A model generated the notes under the pieces. It was not told where the DNA came from. It saw only the letters and a program-made list of their open reading frames with translations, and searched no databases. The translations under genes and the position numbers were made by a program. From a virus, in IMG/VR virus record IMGVR_UViG_3300043437_000128, positions 1 through 21,420 of that record: a stretch of 21,420 nucleotides of DNA. The stretch is one strand, 5' to 3'. This document shows positions 1,271 through 10,576 of this stretch, one piece after another. Positions within the stretch are counted from its first letter, which is position 1; every line of letters starts with the position of its first letter.

Positions 1271-2899
1271 TTAGAATTGTCTTTTTGGAAGAGTTGGGAA
1301 TGTAATTGGAACATCACAACTTGTTTCACATCCAAAGTTTTCAACTTCACATACTCCACATCCTTCTAACCATGCTGTAGTAACATCATTAAACTCTACC
1401 AAGTCAGTTACATTTGTTGCAATAACTTGTAACAAGTATTGGTCATTATCAAATGTACTTGATGGGTTATTGAAACGTGGAACATTGTGTTGGATAACAG
1501 ATTGGTAGTATAAACCATTACGGTTGATAGAAGCAATGATTTGGTTTCCTTGAGTAATCTCACGGATACGGAAATCAGAGTGCAAGAAGTTTTGTCTGTA
1601 GTTTTCAGACAATGTTAATTCACGTAACATTGTTTCACCTAAACCATTAGCTTGAGTACCTAAACACTCATGAACTACACAGATTCCATCAAATGTACAT
1701 GGATCACCATTAAAGTCAACTTCAGATACATAAAGTTTAACTGGTTCTTTTTCATAGAAGTCAGTTAATTGGAATGTACAATCACCAAATTTAGTGTCAA
1801 CATAAGCACCGTTGAAGATCATACCTGCGCATGCACCTTCTGTATGTCCTGTAGATACATAGTTATCCCAAGTATCACCACCTAAAGCAGCTAAGTCAGC
1901 AGCAGTAGTTCCTGGAGCATACCAAAGAACACCAGCCTCATCTTGTATAACAATTTGTACAAATGGATTTACAACTGGGTAACGTAAGATTGCATCAGCC
2001 CATTTGATGAATACTTCAGTAGAGTCAACAGCAACTGGTGCAATTGAACCTTCTGGGCAACATCCTGTGTATGCTTCAGCAATATAATATGCATTGTGAT
2101 TCAAGTAACGTAAAGCAGGAGAACCTTTGATATCAATACGTAATGAGTAAGTCTCACCACATAAGAACTCTTTGCAACACGATGTACCACCTGATCCAGT
2201 GATTGGATCTACATTAGCAGTAGTGGTAGTTGCAATATCTACAGTAGCATCATCATTTCCTCCTACAAGAGTAAGTGTATCATCTACTGTATACCCTTTA
2301 CCTGGATTAATAACTGTTGCACTATCTACTGTTCCACCAGTAACTACAATTTGTAAAACGGCTCCTTCTCCAGTACCACCAGTTACTTCAACTGTATAAG
2401 TACCATTATCATAGCCTGTACCAGCAACTAAAGTATCTACAGTAAGTACACCACCACCTGCAGTCCAGAATGTAGAACCAACATGAAGTACTTCATTTTG
2501 TGGAGCACATGGATCTACTGTATAGAAACGTGATACATACTTAGGATTGATCATTTTAGACTTGTTAGTCTCAGTATATCCACCGTGGAAAGGACCAATT
2601 TTGTCATTAGTATAAATTGCAGAACCTGCAAGATATACATTGCAACAATTGTCTGGAAGAAGTGACAAGTTAGTTTTTGGATTAAAATATCCAACATACC
2701 CACTGTAGTAAGGACCATTAATATTTTCTGCAATAGTAGATAATGAGTTTAATACATAGGTTGGTAAATCTTTTGTAATTAAAAAACCATTGTCTGTTAA
2801 AGCTGCTACAACACTACCATCAAGTAATGTTACATTTGTGTCAAGAGTTTCCCCTGTTGCAAGGAAAGTCTTTTTAAACGCGTGATTAAAATAAGCCAT
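1271..2899 (-). CDS. Cys-rich virion protein with inserted glycine-rich beta domain
   Basis: The 542-residue protein starts MAYFNHAFKKTFLATGETLD, a beginning I associate with abundant structural proteins of Bacteroidota phages. Core segments include YLAGSAIYTNDKIGPFHGGY, ETNKSKMINPKYVSRFYTVD and, near the end, LRELTLSENYRQNFLHSDFR and QHNVPRFNNPSSTFDNDQYL. Residues about 149-236 are different: Gly/Thr/Val-rich with GYDNGTYT, GGTGEGA, VVTGGTVDSATV and GKGYTVDDTLTL, a module seen repeatedly in phage adhesins and fibres, so it looks inserted. There are 17 Cys by my count, ending in a CGVC...CETSC cluster (514-528). Likely a tail, decoration or head-fibre protein; precise position in the virion is unknown. 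Confidence 0.75.
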   Translation of the reverse strand: MAYFNHAFKKTFLATGETLDTNVTLLDGSVVAALTDNGFLITKDLPTYVLNSLSTIAENINGPYYSGYVGYFNPKTNLSLLPDNCCNVYLAGSAIYTNDKIGPFHGGYTETNKSKMINPKYVSRFYTVDPCAPQNEVLHVGSTFWTAGGGVLTVDTLVAGTGYDNGTYTVEVTGGTGEGAVLQIVVTGGTVDSATVINPGKGYTVDDTLTLVGGNDDATVDIATTTTANVDPITGSGGTSCCKEFLCGETYSLRIDIKGSPALRYLNHNAYYIAEAYTGCCPEGSIAPVAVDSTEVFIKWADAILRYPVVNPFVQIVIQDEAGVLWYAPGTTAADLAALGGDTWDNYVSTGHTEGACAGMIFNGAYVDTKFGDCTFQLTDFYEKEPVKLYVSEVDFNGDPCTFDGICVVHECLGTQANGLGETMLRELTLSENYRQNFLHSDFRIREITQGNQIIASINRNGLYYQSVIQHNVPRFNNPSSTFDNDQYLLQVIATNVTDLVEFNDVTTAWLEGCGVCEVENFGCETSCDVPITFPTLPKRQF

Positions 2900-2962: not shown

Positions 2963-3475
2963 TTATTTCAAGAAAAGTAATTTGTACTTAGTTGAATTAA
3001 TAGAATCTTTTACAAGATCTAAATTATTGACAATCTCAGAATAAGGTAACATACCTTGAAGTTTGTTTACCATTGCGTAAATATCTCTAAGATAGCTTAC
3101 ACCATCTGCTACAGTATCAAGAGTTCTTGGAGCTACTTCACTATAAGAAAGAATCTTTTCAGCTGCTCCTTGATAACCTTCTATAAGAGTATCTGCATGA
3201 TCAGGTAAAGCATCATAAAATTCATTCAATGCTTTATGTGCTGCAAATGATCCTTCTCCAGTTACTTTTAAATGAAGTTTATGAATACTTGTTCTTGCAT
3301 TCATTAATTCAGTAGCACAAGCAGAAACCATATTATCTAATGAACTACCACCAACTCCTGTACTTGGTGTAGGTTGTGCTTTAGCTGGTTCACTTTTAGG
3401 TTGTGTTACAGTAACCTCTGGTCTACTAATAGTTTTAGTAGATTCTGGGTTTCTTTTTAACATTCTTTTTTCCAT
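2963..3475 (-). CDS. Dps-like ferritin-superfamily protein
   Basis: This 170-residue protein has a 45-residue Pro/Ser/Lys-rich tail, then a four-helix ferritin-like body. Residues 65-103 read HKLHLKVTGEGSFAAHKALN then EFYDALPDHADTLIEGYQG. The candidate ferroxidase ligands H68, H80, D95 and E99 have the spacing H-x11-H-x14-D-x3-E, which is the same as E. coli Dps (H51, H63, D78, E82). The V-x-G-x-x-F-x-x-H context also matches Dps. Dps proteins form 12-subunit shells that oxidise iron and bind DNA; the flexible basic-leaning N-terminus could be the DNA- or capsid-binding tail. It overlaps the previous gene by one base and lies among virion genes. Dps-like domains of unknown role occur in some phages. 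Confidence 0.82.
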   Translation of the reverse strand: MEKRMLKRNPESTKTISRPEVTVTQPKSEPAKAQPTPSTGVGGSSLDNMVSACATELMNARTSIHKLHLKVTGEGSFAAHKALNEFYDALPDHADTLIEGYQGAAEKILSYSEVAPRTLDTVADGVSYLRDIYAMVNKLQGMLPYSEIVNNLDLVKDSINSTKYKLLFLK

Positions 3476-3777
3476 TATTTTTTCTTTATGCTAACTGTTT
3501 TTTTATAAATCGGTTTATTAGGGTTAGCAGATTGATAACTAATTTCTTTTTTATTATTGGTTTTATTTTTAACTACTGCAGTAGTTCCTTTACCATATTT
3601 ATGATAAATTACAGCAGATTTTTCATCACCAGGATATTTTGTAGTTTCTCCTTTATTATTTTTATGTTTAAGTACAGCTAGTGTACCACCAGATGTTGTG
3701 GTTTTAGTAGTTAAACCTTTTTTATTTTTTTTAACTGTTGTTATACCACCGGTTTGCATTTTTTTCTTTATTGCCAT
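3475..3777 (-). CDS. Basic beta-rich repeat protein, 100 aa
   Basis: This 100-residue, Lys/Thr/Asn-rich protein begins MAIKKKMQTGGITTVKKNKK with the K-M-Q-x-G-G motif seen in the upstream basic array. The body has repeated short units of the type K-x-K-x-x-G-x-T-T followed by alternating hydrophobics (GGTLAVLKHKNNKGETTKYP, KSAVIYHKYGKGTTAVVKNK), suggesting a small beta-meander, and ends KKTVSIKKK. No family is recognised. Its stop overlaps the start of the Dps-like gene (TAATG), so the two are translationally coupled. Confidence 0.75.
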   Translation of the reverse strand: MAIKKKMQTGGITTVKKNKKGLTTKTTTSGGTLAVLKHKNNKGETTKYPGDEKSAVIYHKYGKGTTAVVKNKTNNKKEISYQSANPNKPIYKKTVSIKKK

Positions 3778-3788
3778 TTTAAAATGTT

Positions 3789-4487
3789 TTAGTTATTGCG
3801 TTCAGCCCCTTCAGTACCTCTTGCATATTGATTACTTGATTCAATATCACCGGCAAGTATTGCAACAGCTTCATCAATTATTAATTCTATAATATCATCT
3901 TTAAACTCACATGGAATATTTACTAAAGATTCTATACTAGTATAAGGATCAATACAACCTTGTATCTGTATCTTGATTGGTTGACGGTAATATACTAAAT
4001 CTGCAGATTGAACATCAAAGTCATTGTTTGTGTATATGTTTACATTGTTACCTTTTAGGGTAGCAAATGTTTCTCCCCAAACAAAATCAGGTCTCTTATT
4101 TACATCTCTCAATAACTGATTCAGGTTACCCTCCTCTGCTAAATATACTGTCATTCTTCTTTTATCACAACAGTCTTTTTTAGCATACACATCTACGCGT
4201 TTCCACTGTAAATATTCAGCCGGAAGATTACCTGTGTAATAGTATTCCTTATTTGCTAGGTTCAAAGATTGTGTACTTAACAAAACTTGTAAGTCATCTT
4301 TTCTTCTAGTAGATTGTTCATCACCTTCCCTTACCTGATTAATACCATGAAGTTGTCTCCGGGTCCATTCAACCTGAGCTTTATTAAAAGCTTCAACAAC
4401 CTGCCAGCACTCTATGTTATCATAGTCATTGCTGTCAAGCTTATTAAGCCTTTGCTTCATTTTTATGGTGATGGTGCTGTTTAACAT
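3789..4487 (-). CDS. Head-tail connector / ring protein
   Basis: The 232-residue product resembles crAss-like connector (ring) proteins that sit below the portal. The N-terminal helical part has MKQRLNKLDSNDYDNIECWQ (residues 10-29) and a helix ending in WTRRQLHG. The middle is beta-rich (LPAEYLQWKRVDVYAKKDCC, then RRMTVYLAEEGN, WGETFATLKGNNVNIYTN). The C-terminus has GCIDPYTSIESLVNIPCEFK and a final helix DDIIELIIDEAVAILAGDIES. The combination of a helical N-terminus, beta core, and a C-terminal helix with D-E-A-x-x-I-L-x-G-D is typical of adaptor proteins. Its place after the capsid genes fits. It would connect portal to tail in a podovirus. Confidence 0.78.
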   Translation of the reverse strand: MLNSTITIKMKQRLNKLDSNDYDNIECWQVVEAFNKAQVEWTRRQLHGINQVREGDEQSTRRKDDLQVLLSTQSLNLANKEYYYTGNLPAEYLQWKRVDVYAKKDCCDKRRMTVYLAEEGNLNQLLRDVNKRPDFVWGETFATLKGNNVNIYTNNDFDVQSADLVYYRQPIKIQIQGCIDPYTSIESLVNIPCEFKDDIIELIIDEAVAILAGDIESSNQYARGTEGAERNN

Positions 4488-4648: not shown

Positions 4649-5713
4649 CTATTTCTTTTTAATTGCGCCACCTTTTCTTTTAATGACACCACGTCCTTTA
4701 AGAATATCAGCTTTAGTAATCTTACCATCTTTGTTTAAATCTGGAAAACCACCTTTAGCATACTTTTTCATAGCTCCTCCTTTTTGCTTATAAACACTAA
4801 GCTTTTTTTTCATTGCAGCTAGTTCAGCTTTAGAACGTACTCTACTTTCACCTTCAGAATCATTATATTCATTTTCTCTATCAACTTTTGCTTTAGATGC
4901 ATTATATGCACTAGGTGCATAAAATTGTGTACGTGCAACACTGTTTTCAGGCAATGTATCACTTGCAGCCATTTTGGGAAACTTTTGCATTAATTGTTGA
5001 TTATATGTTTTTGGTGTTTTAATCACAGTACCCTTTTGAGCTTTAACTAATTTTTTAGTAACACCACCCATTTTACGTTTACCTATTGATACAGTTCCTA
5101 CACCAGAAGCAGATCTTACACGACCTGGAGCAGGTGAATGTTGTACTGGAACAGAAGCACCAAATTTAGCTTTTGCTACTGAACCCCCTTTAGCCATTTT
5201 GTTAGTCTGAACAATTTTTTCAGGCATTTTTTTCATAGCTTCACCTTTAAGTTTCATTTGCATCCCGTTGTGTTTCATTTCAAGACCCTTCTTTTTCATT
5301 TCTAATCCTTCTAGTGTCATTGGATACGGATCTGTAGATTTTGCTTTTCTAATAACAACTGAATTAGTTCCACCTTTTTGCATTTTTTTAGCATTTGGAC
5401 TTGCCTGTTTTTCTGCCCATTTAGATGTATCTGGTTTATTACTTTCCGTAGGTGGAATATAACCTGATCCTTTTTTTCTAACATACTTCATTGTTTTTTT
5501 AGTAGATACAGGTTTTTGTCCCATTGCTTTTTGCATTGCGGCAACAGGACCACCATCTTGATATTTCTTTACAGAGCCTCCTTTTTTAAGCATAGCTCCT
5601 GTGGAAGTTCTAGGGTTATTACCATACTTTGGCATACCAACAATTTCTGCTGAACCTCCTTTTGCCATTTTTTTCATTGCTCCACCACAAGAAGCACATC
5701 CCATTTTTTTCAT
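4649..5713 (-). CDS. Lys-Gly-Gly repeat protein with EF-hand calcium loop
   Basis: This 354-residue, very basic protein is built from spaced repeats of a short motif, [KM]-x-[KQ]-x-G-G: AKGG (17-20), KKGG (43-46), YQDGG (51-55), QKGG (112-115), AKGG (174-177), KMGG (214-217), AQKG (225-228), QKGG (310-313), AKGG (319-322) and RKGG (346-349). Residues 136-163 hold four 7-residue repeats beginning with Gly (GLEMKKK type). Residues 325-336, DLNKDGKITKAD, match an EF-hand/dockerin calcium loop at positions 1, 3, 5, 7, 9 and 12. The N-terminus has MKKMGCASCGG, a possible CxxC metal site. Function is unknown. I infer a virion protein whose repeats bind the capsid or DNA. Confidence 0.8.
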   Translation of the reverse strand: MKKMGCASCGGAMKKMAKGGSAEIVGMPKYGNNPRTSTGAMLKKGGSVKKYQDGGPVAAMQKAMGQKPVSTKKTMKYVRKKGSGYIPPTESNKPDTSKWAEKQASPNAKKMQKGGTNSVVIRKAKSTDPYPMTLEGLEMKKKGLEMKHNGMQMKLKGEAMKKMPEKIVQTNKMAKGGSVAKAKFGASVPVQHSPAPGRVRSASGVGTVSIGKRKMGGVTKKLVKAQKGTVIKTPKTYNQQLMQKFPKMAASDTLPENSVARTQFYAPSAYNASKAKVDRENEYNDSEGESRVRSKAELAAMKKKLSVYKQKGGAMKKYAKGGFPDLNKDGKITKADILKGRGVIKRKGGAIKKK

Positions 5714-5716
5714 GAC

Positions 5717-6181
5717 TTATTTTTTTAATGATTTATTAGATTTAATTGGAGTTTGAACAGCACCGCCTCTTTTTTTCTCAAGATTCCAACCTTTTTTAAA
5801 CATCTTAACATATAAAGGACTAAGAGCAGCATTTAAAATAGCAGACCCTACTGCAGCAGTTCTACTTTCTTTTTTTTCATCAGAGTTTTTTGGTAAATTC
5901 TTGTAATCTTGTTTATAATTTTTCTTTTCCCCTTTACTCATTTTATATTTAGGTGATTTATCCTTAGAAATTCTTTTAGAATTTTTTGGATCCAGATCAT
6001 ATTCTTTTATTCTTTGAATACTCTGATCAGTAGAAAGAGGAAAACTTTTTCTTTTATATTCAGCACCTCTAATACGTGATGCAGCTTGTGGACTCATTGG
6101 ACCTTCTCTTTTCACTTCAGTTCCTGTTTGAGCTTTACGTAATGGTTTTTTACTAACAATTTTTTTAATTACCTTTTTCAT
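5717..6181 (-). CDS. Basic Lys-rich protein with short hydrophobic segment
   Basis: The 154-residue protein starts MKKVIKKIVSKKPLRKAQTGTEV, where KAQTGT resembles the K-x-Q-x-G-[GT] motif repeated in the next gene. Most of the body is Lys/Ser/Asp-rich and likely disordered, with a more hydrophobic stretch at about residues 108-130 (TAAVGSAILNAALSPLYVKMF) that could be an amphipathic or membrane-interacting helix, then KKRGGAVQT and a poly-Lys end. No family is recognised. It could be an internal virion protein; the hydrophobic helix also allows a role at the host membrane during DNA entry, which is speculative. Confidence 0.72.
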   Translation of the reverse strand: MKKVIKKIVSKKPLRKAQTGTEVKREGPMSPQAASRIRGAEYKRKSFPLSTDQSIQRIKEYDLDPKNSKRISKDKSPKYKMSKGEKKNYKQDYKNLPKNSDEKKESRTAAVGSAILNAALSPLYVKMFKKGWNLEKKRGGAVQTPIKSNKSLKK

Positions 6182-6193
6182 TATATATAAGTT

Positions 6194-6703
6194 TTAACAA
6201 TTCCACTTCCTTAGAGAAAGAGCCTTTCTAGTAGGTCTTCCTTTTTCATCCTTCATAGGTCCAGGCATACCTGACATCCTAGCACAGAATGACTTTCTTC
6301 TTTTGGCCGGTTTACTATCCGGATCAAGTTTAGATGGCTTAGTAGTTACTGCCATCTTAAGATTACTTCCAGGATTAGCAGCTCTATAACTTGCTACTCC
6401 TTTTGCATTTAATCCTCCTGTAGGATTCTTTCCCTCCTTACGGGTCCAAGCTGGTGTTGATCCACCACTTTTCATTTTAGGCATTTTATCATTTTTCTTA
6501 TGCCAATCTTTTTCAGCTTTAACTCCTTGCTTAACAGTTTTAGCATTAGCTGTTCTGGTTAAACTGATAGTATCATATGAACCTTTGTTTTTATTTGTAT
6601 GGTTCACCATAATATCACCAACTTTACCTTCACCTCTTTTTGTAGTTTTTTTATATACTACATGCTTTTCATTACCGGTGGTAAGTTTAACCTTAGCTGC
6701 CAT
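6194..6703 (-). CDS. Basic protein with C-terminal DUF6321-like domain
   Basis: The 169-residue product has a basic N-terminal half (residues 1-75, ending in KMPKMKSGGS, a Lys-x-Gly-Gly motif) and a C-terminal domain with TPAWTRKEGKNPTGGLNAKG, then AANPGSNLKMAV, then RRKSFCARMSGMPGPMKD and GRPTRKALSLRKWNC. The motif order AWTRKEG-NP-GGLNAKG ... RR-SF-ARM-GM-GP-D--G-PTR-ALSL--W is one I recall as a short domain of unknown function (DUF6321-like) in many phages of aquatic origin. The domain name is from memory. Role is unknown; strong positive charge suggests nucleic-acid or capsid contact. Confidence 0.8.
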   Translation of the reverse strand: MAAKVKLTTGNEKHVVYKKTTKRGEGKVGDIMVNHTNKNKGSYDTISLTRTANAKTVKQGVKAEKDWHKKNDKMPKMKSGGSTPAWTRKEGKNPTGGLNAKGVASYRAANPGSNLKMAVTTKPSKLDPDSKPAKRRKSFCARMSGMPGPMKDEKGRPTRKALSLRKWNC

Positions 6704-6705
6704 GA

Positions 6706-6891
6706 CTATTTCTTTTTAGTTTTGACACTACCTCCCTTTTTTCTTTCAGTTATGTTGATTACACGGTTTTGAGTTTTAGCAGCTCTACCTAAAAGTCTAT
6801 CAGCTTTTTTTTCTCTACCTTCATCAACAGCCTTGTAACCTTTCTTTACAAGTCTATTTTCTTTTTGTGTTAATCTTTTTACTCTATCCAT
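6706..6891 (-). CDS. Very basic 61-aa helical protein
   Basis: By my count 22 of 61 residues are Lys or Arg. The first 50 residues look like a single amphipathic or coiled helix pair (TQKENRLVKKGYKAVDEG and KKADRLLGRAAKTQNRV), followed by ERKKGGSVKTKKK, a Lys-Gly-Gly motif and poly-Lys end. This composition resembles small DNA-condensing proteins, but no family is recognised. Its last codons and stop (AAAAAGAAATAG) lie 2 nt before the next ATG and probably serve as an A-rich translation-initiation region for it. Confidence 0.72.
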   Translation of the reverse strand: MDRVKRLTQKENRLVKKGYKAVDEGREKKADRLLGRAAKTQNRVINITERKKGGSVKTKKK

Positions 6892-6909
6892 GACACATAA
6901 GTTTAGTTA

Positions 6910-7248
6910 TTACACATTTTTAACTCTTCTTCCCATTCCTACTTTAGACTTCTCAGCTTTTTTAGCAGCCAGTTTAGAAGGTGTTAATTCACTTTTTGTT
7001 TTAGGTGTATCCTTAGATATTCTCTTGGTTGGCCGGCAGTATTCATTTTTACCACCGGCACCACAAGCTTTTCCTGATTTAGTATCTTGCCATTTCTCTG
7101 CTTGCCATCTTTTAAGTTCTGTTCCTTTACTAGTTTTTCTTACATTGCCAGAACCTTTACGGCATTTGGCAATAGCTTGAGAAGCTCTAGCTGAAGGAAA
7201 CACAGCGTACTGTGCTTTTACTTTTGAATAACACGCATCTTTAGGCAT
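6910..7248 (-). CDS. Basic Cys-containing protein (DUF5872-like from memory)
   Basis: The 112-residue product begins MPKDACYSKVKAQYAVFPSA, followed by RASQAIAKCRKGSGN, LKRWQAEKWQDTKSGKACG, and EYCRPTKRISKDTPKT, ending in Lys-rich helix and GMGRRVKNV. This order (CY-KVK-Y-FPSA...AKCRK...LKRW-EKW...CG...YCRPTKR) is one I recall from a domain of unknown function (DUF5872-like) found in environmental phages and giant viruses. The family number should be checked. Four Cys (C6, C29, C62, C71) might bind a metal. It is strongly basic and part of the array between capsid and connector genes. Confidence 0.78.
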   Translation of the reverse strand: MPKDACYSKVKAQYAVFPSARASQAIAKCRKGSGNVRKTSKGTELKRWQAEKWQDTKSGKACGAGGKNEYCRPTKRISKDTPKTKSELTPSKLAAKKAEKSKVGMGRRVKNV

Positions 7249-7270
7249 TACTTAACAGATTAAAATATTA

Positions 7271-7450
7271 CTATTTACTTGGCTCAGCTGTTTTAGGAGC
7301 TGTGCTTAATCCACCTACGCGGCCTTTTGGAACTTTTTGTACTACTAATGGTGAGTTAAGACCAACCATTACTCCCTTGCTTCCAGGGATTTTTTGTACT
7401 TGCAAACTTGGATTTGGGTTATTAATTTTCCCAGTTGTGTATTGTGCCAT
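7271..7450 (-). CDS. Small 59-aa Pro/Gly-rich basic protein
   Basis: An ATG at 7450 opens a 59-codon frame ending in TAG, giving MAQYTTGKINNPNPSLQVQK and ending TAPKTAEPSK. It contains two related segments, LQVQKIPGSKGVMVG and LVVQKVPKGRVGG, an imperfect internal repeat of about 14 residues (V-Q-K-[IV]-P...G). It fills the otherwise empty gap between two basic genes, uses the same short A-rich junction upstream, and has the basic Gly-rich composition of the array. No family is recognised. Confidence 0.7.
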   Translation of the reverse strand: MAQYTTGKINNPNPSLQVQKIPGSKGVMVGLNSPLVVQKVPKGRVGGLSTAPKTAEPSK

Positions 7451-7455
7451 GATAA

Positions 7456-7851
7456 TTATTTTTTAGAAGTTTTACTAGCACCACCTGTTTTGTATTTGTA
7501 AGGAGCTTTCTTTTCTTTGTAGTAAGTTGTCCCATCACTTTTAGTAACCTTAGTCTGAGTTCTATAACCAGAAGGTGTTCCTTTTCTATTTACAGTAGTT
7601 GTAGTACCTTTAGCGTTTTTAGCAGTGCTTGAAGTATTTGTATTTCTTCTGTTAATATCTAAGTCTCTTCTTAATACTTCTTTATCAATATAAGTTCTAG
7701 ATTCTTTTGGTTCAGTTCTACCAAGACCAAAGTTTTTATTATTAAGTTTTAATTGAGAAGCTCTAACCCTAACATCAGAAGGACTCATAGAAGCCACCTC
7801 TTTACTTTTTTTCTGTTTAGTTTTAGTAACCTTGTCTTTTGTTGTTGCCAT
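7456..7851 (-). CDS. Basic Lys/Thr-rich protein of the protamine-like array
   Basis: The 131-residue protein is rich in Lys, Arg, Thr and Ser with few hydrophobic residues, so it is probably disordered. The first 20 residues are Lys-rich (KVTKTKQKKSK), the middle has an RRDLDINRRN segment, and the C-terminus has a beta-prone TTVNRKGTPSG...TTYYKEKKAPYKY stretch ending in a YKTGGASKTSKK tail with the Lys-x-Gly-Gly motif shared by its neighbours. Function is not known. Charge and position among virion genes suggest DNA or capsid-interior binding. Its final AAA codons and stop sit 5 nt before the next start. Confidence 0.75.
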   Translation of the reverse strand: MATTKDKVTKTKQKKSKEVASMSPSDVRVRASQLKLNNKNFGLGRTEPKESRTYIDKEVLRRDLDINRRNTNTSSTAKNAKGTTTTVNRKGTPSGYRTQTKVTKSDGTTYYKEKKAPYKYKTGGASKTSKK

Positions 7852-8953: not shown

Positions 8954-10576
8954 TTAGAATGATCCACCAGTGATTGGGTTTCTCATAACAATTTTCAAGA
9001 CTTTAGTTGGATCTTTAACCCAAATAGCTGGCATTGTTTGAGACATCATTACACGGTATCCATTGAATTGTCCAGAAGACTGGAACCCTTGAGTTCTACC
9101 CATGTAATCCATTGTACCATTTTGATACCACCATTTCAATTGATTATCCCAAGACAATTTCAATAAGTAGATATTGTCATTAGTATTATCAGTGATGTCA
9201 AAGATAATGAATGAATAAGAAGACAATGGGAAACCATCAATAATTGGGTTCTCAATATCATTTGTATGAACGTTGTCAAATGCAGGATTCAATACAAATT
9301 TCACGTTAGCCAAGAATGGAATAACATAAGAAGTGTAAGCAAATCCAAAGTTCAAGTCCATACCTTTACCAGTGATTGCACCGATATCAGCAGCCTGAAT
9401 CAAAAGACCAGAAGATACTGCTTCTCTTTTGATAGCTTCATTTACCATACGCATTCCACCCATACCAGTTTGAACTACTAAGCTACGCTTAGGATCTGGA
9501 CCTTGGAACTCAACTTTACCATTAAAGAAGTTGTAGATTTCTCCACGGAACAAATCCAATGTAAAGTTATTTTTGTTGTATACTCTTTTGAAAGAGTTAT
9601 CCAATTGTTTCCAAAGACCGACAGATAATCTGATATCATCTGGACCATCTTGTTTAACACGTCCACCATGTCCCCACATCAAGTAAGTCTCAATGTCAGT
9701 TGCAATTTTAGACAAGTGAGCAGATTCCAAAGTAGTTAAGAAAGTTCTTGACAAATCTCCATTGTCAAATGCTTTTTTCACTTTGTCTTTACCCATTACT
9801 TTAACCATGTCCTCTAGGGATGTGATTGAAGGGTCCAAGTTTGATTTATCAAATGTTCTCCAGATCTCAGTTACAGGAACTGTACCATCTGCATTCATTC
9901 CACCTTTAATCATCAAGTCAGCACGAGATGAGATAGAATAGTGTACGTGAGCTTCAGCACCTCCTACAAAGTTGTAGAATTCACGGAAACCAGTTCTTGT
10001 TTGGATGTCAGAGAATCTCTCTCCATATTCACCTCTTGCAGAACCTTTACGGAATACTTTAGTACCATTTGCTAAATACTTGTTATCCAAGAATTTATAG
10101 TTGTCATTATCAACTAATTGTACTGTATAGATGAAACCGTCACCTACAGGAAGAATATCTTCTGTTGGTACAATGTACATCTCAGCTCCGTTGTATTTGT
10201 CATATGTGATCATATCACCATGTCCAAACTCACGTCTGCTTAATTTGATACGGAATGTAGTACCATCTACTCCTTTGAAAGAGTTACTTGGTTCAATATC
10301 CTCAATGATGTAAGGAAGATCCAAAGATACTGGAGTCTGCCATTTGTACTCACCACGAGCATTATCAACCATGATTACATTTTTCCCACCAAAACTTGAC
10401 ATTTGGTAAAGAGGCATTTCAACTTTTTGAGCCATAGCCCATAAGTCAACTGGACCTAAATCCATAGGCTCAGAATCTTTCAGCATGTTAACCAAGTGGT
10501 ATGAATCCACATGGGAACTTGCTTGATACGCGGTATCTCTGAGGAATATACCATTGTTTAAAACTGGAGTTGCCAT
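8954..10576 (-). CDS. Major capsid protein (HK97-type, crAss-like)
   Basis: The 540-residue protein starts MATPVLNNGIFLRDTAYQ and contains SYHLVNML, GPVDLWAMAQ and SFGGKNVIMVD in the N-terminal region, then many beta-rich segments with frequent Asp/Asn/Gly turns. I recognise this as the crAss-like phage major capsid protein type, expected to adopt the HK97 fold and form the icosahedral shell. Its position after a scaffold-like gene and its own downstream terminator agree. Codons appear regular, with many GGT/GTT and ACC-free choices, consistent with high expression. No propeptide cleavage site is obvious. The leader is C- and G-poor (AACAAAAACAAATAAATA). Confidence 0.9.
   Translation of the reverse strand: MATPVLNNGIFLRDTAYQASSHVDSYHLVNMLKDSEPMDLGPVDLWAMAQKVEMPLYQMSSFGGKNVIMVDNARGEYKWQTPVSLDLPYIIEDIEPSNSFKGVDGTTFRIKLSRREFGHGDMITYDKYNGAEMYIVPTEDILPVGDGFIYTVQLVDNDNYKFLDNKYLANGTKVFRKGSARGEYGERFSDIQTRTGFREFYNFVGGAEAHVHYSISSRADLMIKGGMNADGTVPVTEIWRTFDKSNLDPSITSLEDMVKVMGKDKVKKAFDNGDLSRTFLTTLESAHLSKIATDIETYLMWGHGGRVKQDGPDDIRLSVGLWKQLDNSFKRVYNKNNFTLDLFRGEIYNFFNGKVEFQGPDPKRSLVVQTGMGGMRMVNEAIKREAVSSGLLIQAADIGAITGKGMDLNFGFAYTSYVIPFLANVKFVLNPAFDNVHTNDIENPIIDGFPLSSYSFIIFDITDNTNDNIYLLKLSWDNQLKWWYQNGTMDYMGRTQGFQSSGQFNGYRVMMSQTMPAIWVKDPTKVLKIVMRNPITGGSF

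Follow-up and report, generated by a model that had tools for sequence, protein, structure and literature searches.

Analysis of a 21.4-kb viral contig, which is the entire virus record and is called the window below, revealed on its minus strand a gene that probably encodes a phage Dps-like mini-ferritin with Dps-type ferroxidase function, as judged from its sequence and modelled fold. The Dps-type reading is supported because the predicted iron ligands are invariant and in exact register with those of H. pylori NAP, because a family profile matches Dps proteins and because Dps proteins top the lists of fold matches; further support comes from the gene's fixed position, flanked by a virion-protein gene on one side and a presumed virion gene on the other, from purifying selection, and from independent putative DpsA annotations carried by gut crAss-like phages. 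An earlier note on this DNA had proposed such a ferritin; its observation was accurate, and sequence and models support its central interpretation, with corrections given below. Phage-borne Dps is already known from crAssphages, Vi01-type phages and T4 (where it is unrecognised by name), and the gene described here adds a phage Dps whose tail is specific to its clade and whose position within a structural operon is constant.

The contig is a crAss-like virus related to gut crAssphages, an identity fixed because the predicted major capsid protein matches Crass_capsid.

8954..10576, minus strand: major capsid protein, crAss-like; PF23898 Crass_capsid, E 3.4e-30; weak PDB match to crAss001 gp32 (7qof, E 0.0024)

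The portal and large terminase (TerL) match PHROGs 6547 and 6681, and the terminase places Flavobacterium phages and gut crAss-like phages nearest among named phages (~24% identity). The presence of Crass_capsid, portal and TerL confirmed the phage structural operon as the setting of the gene. Positions 4649-7851, between the capsid-side genes and the gene of a 232-aa virion protein, hold six consecutive small, very basic ORFs (about 23-36% K+R), one of which encodes 354 aa with repeated KKMAKGG-like motifs. The C-terminal end of a basic 169-aa protein at 6194-6703, KSFCARMSGMPGPMKDEKGRPTRKALSLRKWNC, is a module common to eight PHROGs of unknown function, several of which are much longer.

The position of the ORF and the four ligands named earlier were borne out when the ligand codons were read from the minus strand.

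2963..3475, minus strand: coding sequence of the Dps-like protein (DUF5856 / PHROG 858), 170 aa; based on the ORF, Pfam PF19174, phrog_858, 80 close relatives in IMG/VR and dN/dS
3272..3274, minus strand: H68 codon, first predicted ferroxidase ligand; invariant in 134/134 sequences, aligned to H25 of H. pylori NAP
3236..3238, minus strand: H80 codon, second predicted ferroxidase ligand; invariant in 134/134, aligned to H37
3191..3193, minus strand: D95 codon, third predicted ferroxidase ligand; invariant in 134/134, aligned to D52
3179..3181, minus strand: E99 codon, fourth predicted ferroxidase ligand; invariant in 134/134, aligned to E56

The spacing H-x11-H-x14-D-x3-E is exact in the window protein. 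The surrounding context, given earlier as V-x-G-x-x-F-x-x-H, was one residue off and reads V71-x-G73-x3-F77-x2-H80 (G-x3-F). The same motif occurred in only 2 of 3,567 unrelated ORFs from the fetched loci (640,430 aa), apparently one sequence in two contigs, and a chance motif was rejected on this count together with the total conservation of the ligands. Median pairwise dN/dS was 0.12 in the body and 0.26 in the N-terminal tail, revealing purifying selection on the ORF, with a constraint on the tail that is weaker than that on the body yet clear.

The protein matched Pfam PF19174 (DUF5856) at 55.9 bits, against a cut-off of 34.6, and phrog_858 at E 2.9e-21. The PHROG label, 'starvation-inducible transcriptional regulator', appears to echo the naming of Dps-family proteins; we detected no regulator domain and rejected this assignment. 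The family spans T2/T4 rI.-1, Kuttervirus proteins, a protein of Methylophilaceae phage P19250A, many uncultured phages and crAss001 gp7; among Bacteroidota phages, a homologue was found in crAss001 but not in phi14:2, Fpv3 or cr272_1. A scan of genome contigs found no close relative of bacterial origin, and a literature search found nothing for DUF5856 or for Cellulophaga phage Dps.

Inspection of the homologues revealed that all four ligands were kept, both in the close homologues (81/81) and in a family alignment of 134 distinct sequences, including 15 representatives below 60% identity, in which S76 and G103 were invariant as well. The core HxxH...S...H...D...E...G, comprising H65, H68, S76, H80, D95, E99 and G103, aligned with the proteins of T4/T2, Kuttervirus and others. 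The interval between the two ligand histidines was x11 in each of the 62 distinct sequences from close crAss-like relatives and x8 in 70 of the 72 others, whose inter-His loop is three residues shorter. H-x11-H had been taken as part of the spacing that defines the Dps iron site; it holds within the crAss-like clade of the window protein but not family-wide, since most members have H-x8-H. A regular expression alone misleads in the x8 members, where H65-x11-H80 mimics the spacing.

Family genes of other phages neighbour rI, a holin gene, DNA primase and a tail gene, or genes for sugar-nucleotide enzymes; because they sit in these other contexts, the structural-operon setting is a feature of the window protein's clade. 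In the T2-like phage SV76 (L085:3938-4324), and also in T4, the uncharacterised rI.-1 overlaps the antiholin gene rI, and rI.-1 of SV76/T4 is a Dps-like family member with all four ferroxidase ligands kept. In certain small phages the family gene stands directly before an annotated holin gene (P19250A) or an endolysin-like gene (zth2-2), at L083:7962-8366 and L090:2959-3375.

In Dps proteins the four residues form an intersubunit dinuclear iron site. The window protein carries them in exact register with H25, H37, D52 and E56 of H. pylori NAP, which are the established ferroxidase ligands of that protein. As a single sequence it matched Dps weakly in the PDB (E 0.14); a profile of 11 diverse members gave Dps matches at E 6e-5 to 6e-3, including 2d5k (E 6e-5), MrgA 2chp (E 2.5e-4) and HP-NAP (E 5.5e-4). 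The window protein and the bacterial Dps proteins of E. coli, H. pylori (NAP) and M. smegmatis (Dps2), as well as MrgA, are alike in ligand register, profile similarity and fold (VIA Z up to 15.8). Against the Dps-type reading, the single sequence gave no match to Pfam Ferritin (PF00210) at E <= 1 and only E 0.053 with the NCBIfam Dps model, and the body, at ~126 aa, is shorter than that of bacterial Dps. Classical Dps proteins commonly have a Trp after the first His and an acidic residue four positions after the second, where the window protein has L69 and N84, and their short BC helix, in the B-C loop, appeared in one of our two models only: the first has it as helix 102-108, and in the second it is absorbed by helix 76-105.

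Structure prediction yielded a four-helix bundle with Dps topology, whose best structural matches were Dps proteins, preceded by a disordered N-terminal segment. Neither of the two outcomes that the earlier note had listed as refuting its reading, a different fold or loss of the ligands in homologues, was observed.

2963..3343, minus strand: ferritin-like body with a four-helix bundle, spanning residues 45-170 and the stop codon; AF2, VIA Z 15.8 to MsDps2 with rmsd 2.3 across 127 residues
3344..3475, minus strand: N-terminal tail, residues 1-44, containing Pro, Lys and Arg, predicted disordered; pLDDT <50 over most of the tail

The body helices were predicted at residues 45-70, 76-105, 122-140 and 146-168. 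AF2 with an alignment of 40 close relatives gave a mean pLDDT of 74, and with 31 more diverse sequences 80.6, the helical body being mostly >90 and residues 1-40 mostly disordered; over 10-residue blocks of the body, mean pLDDT was 79-97. Dps proteins topped both the Foldseek and the VIA-align lists, nearly all top structural matches being Dps, and MsDps2 was matched by the two models at Z 15.0 and 15.8 (VIA), with an rmsd of 2.5 and 2.3 over 127-128 residues. Since helical bundles can reach Z 13-14 without kinship, we read the fold match alongside the evidence from ligands and profile. The Ca. Methanoperedens mini-bacterioferritin (9qq4/9qq5; Z 14.3), which has a similarly short body, is described as a 12-mer (PMC13168243); it differs in being named a bacterioferritin, and its likeness to the window protein is structural. 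Dps-like fold matches were also seen in the BFVD entries A0A6J7WPK9, A0A6J7XDU5 and A0A6J7WIS1, phage proteins of 333-763 aa named prohead protease, over about 130-160 columns; these may be head morphogenesis proteins to which a ferritin-like domain has been fused.

The tail had been described as a 45-residue Pro/Lys addition to the Dps body. Such a tail does exist, at residues 1-44, but as a feature of the clade and not of the family: it was present only in the crAss-like clade, and the N-termini of other family members are shorter or acidic. Across 40 representatives L6, K7, R8, E29, P35 and V41-S45 were invariant, giving conserved LKR and VGGSS motifs. The tail contains 8 K/R, 4 D/E and 6 P, and this modest excess of basic residues is no more than suggestive of a DNA-binding role.

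Two further residues, which the window protein and its family carry in addition to the classical Dps site, are near-invariant potential metal ligands; both are absent from crAss001 gp7.

3281..3283, minus strand: H65 codon, extra near-invariant His of the HxxH pair; 132/134
3017..3019, minus strand: D153 codon, extra near-invariant acidic residue in the last helix; 130/134

These extra residues, together with the missing Trp and acidic residue of many Dps and the position of T4-type members beside the antiholin gene rI, would fit a four-helix bundle that has retained a metal site, such as one for Zn2+ or Mn2+, to stabilise itself and that works as an adaptor, structural or regulatory, with no ferroxidase turnover. 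We consider such an adaptor distinctly unlikely, as it is precisely the four ferroxidase ligands that are kept in all 134 sequences, down to 21-34% identity.

Comparison with other phage proteins placed the window protein in relation to several named relatives. T4 rI.-1 and the proteins of Vi01, CBA120 and Sajous1 (PHROG 858/DUF5856) are homologous over the entire body and above the Pfam cut-off, and they keep the four ligands, H65 and D153 as the window protein does; PHROG 858 members mostly differ from it in that they have H-x8-H, lack the Pro/Lys tail and sit among non-structural genes or tail genes. crAss001 gp7, annotated as putative DpsA, was found by the profile at E 4e-7 and by BLASTP at E 0.02 in another register. 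This protein and its gut crAss-like relatives are Dps-like proteins of Crassvirales with the same four ligands; gp7 differs in being very distant, in lying in a tRNA array and in keeping the Trp after the first His. Benler et al. (PMC8008677) also describe Dps enzymes of Gratiaviridae and further gut phages and cite such enzymes in Lactobacillus phages; these are likewise phage-borne and proposed to act against oxidative stress, but belong to other phage groups and are likened here by description.

The genes that flank the Dps-like gene are the following.

3475..3777, minus strand: 100-aa basic ORF overlapping the Dps-like start codon; absent from 80/80 relatives
3789..4487, minus strand: gene of a 232-aa virion structural protein, conserved upstream partner; phrog_29507 virion structural protein, E 4.7e-13
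1271..2899, minus strand: gene of a 542-aa presumed virion protein, conserved downstream partner; phage tail/head proteins matched weakly, over a repeat-like segment

Translational coupling to the basic gene had been proposed, and the overlap is real (TAATG at 3473-3477); the basic gene, however, is peculiar to this contig. In the relatives the 232-aa gene lies directly upstream of the Dps-like gene (80/80) with a gap of only -1 to 12 nt, mostly 2 or 5, so that there is no room for the 100-aa gene, which by this comparison is a local insertion specific to this contig. It was rejected as a functional link. The 542-aa gene follows 61-78 nt (~64 nt) downstream of the Dps-like gene in 79/80 relatives. 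PDB searches with the 232-aa and 542-aa proteins gave nothing useful, and phrog_29507 did not identify the 232-aa neighbour in crAss001 or phi14:2.

The fixed neighbourhood bears on a second reading, compatible with ferroxidase chemistry and differing in the place and time of action, which we hold as a tentative possibility: the protein may be a virion component, docked by its tail at the neck or connector or packaged with the DNA, that travels with iron or ferroxidase activity to the next host, or else exploits iron during host entry ('Ferrojan horse'). The virion-protein gene precedes directly in every relative, the presence of the tail, which is specific to the clade, coincides exactly with a structural-operon location of the gene, and the viral fold matches include the Dps-like proteins named prohead protease. 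The Kuttervirus (Vi01-like) homologue Sajous1 gp217 (154947-155300 of MW021757; BLASTP E 4e-12 to the window protein) was moreover detected in CsCl-purified particles by 10 spectra and modelled as a ferritin by Phyre2, and ferritin-mediated entry was proposed (PMC10892097). However, 10 spectra is a low number and the same study warns of cellular contaminants and reports, for one host, no dependence on the iron uptake genes TonB/FeoB (PMC10892097). The crAss001 homologue lies outside the structural genes, the main text on crAss001 virion proteomics makes no mention of it, and other family members occupy non-structural contexts. By analogy with its homologue, virion association is plausible for this phage; that the Dps-like protein is a regular virion constituent throughout the environmental crAss-like clade seems somewhat doubtful. 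If this were true, the conserved clade tail would anchor a cage with ferroxidase activity at the connector or on the packaged DNA, and the particle would carry its own anti-oxidant and iron module into the host.

The same ligands and fold, from which ferritin-type storage follows, would also suit a protein whose main gain is iron sequestration, either withdrawing host Fe2+ or holding Fe2+ for phage enzymes such as ribonucleotide reductase, and for which protecting DNA is a side effect. This appears unlikely, given that the late-operon position in the clade argues for action near assembly and that subunits with a body of 126 aa would presumably form a small cage able to store little iron.

Taking sequence and models together, the gene product is most likely a late-expressed Dps-type ferroxidase that detoxifies Fe2+ and peroxide near phage DNA, where we infer late expression from operon position only. 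Subunits would pair so that H68 and H80 of one and D95 and E99 of the other bind two irons, and the protein, probably a cage, would oxidise Fe2+ with H2O2 or O2, thereby removing Fenton reactants and storing ferric iron. Late synthesis from the structural operon would let it accumulate where phage DNA is packaged and shield this DNA there. The N-terminal tail, flexible and basic, may hold the cage to DNA or dock it to a virion protein, for which the product of the directly preceding 232-aa gene is the natural candidate.

These results join scattered annotations, namely T4 rI.-1, the 'starvation-inducible regulator' of Vi01, 'DpsA' of crAss001 and the structural-operon gene of the window protein's clade. 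With a common invariant Dps iron site, a gene that has lacked an explanation in T4 and in more than a thousand sequenced phages can now be tested for ferroxidase activity. The fixed place beside a virion-protein gene, with a unique tail, makes this clade well suited to the question of whether phage particles are equipped with an iron-handling enzyme.
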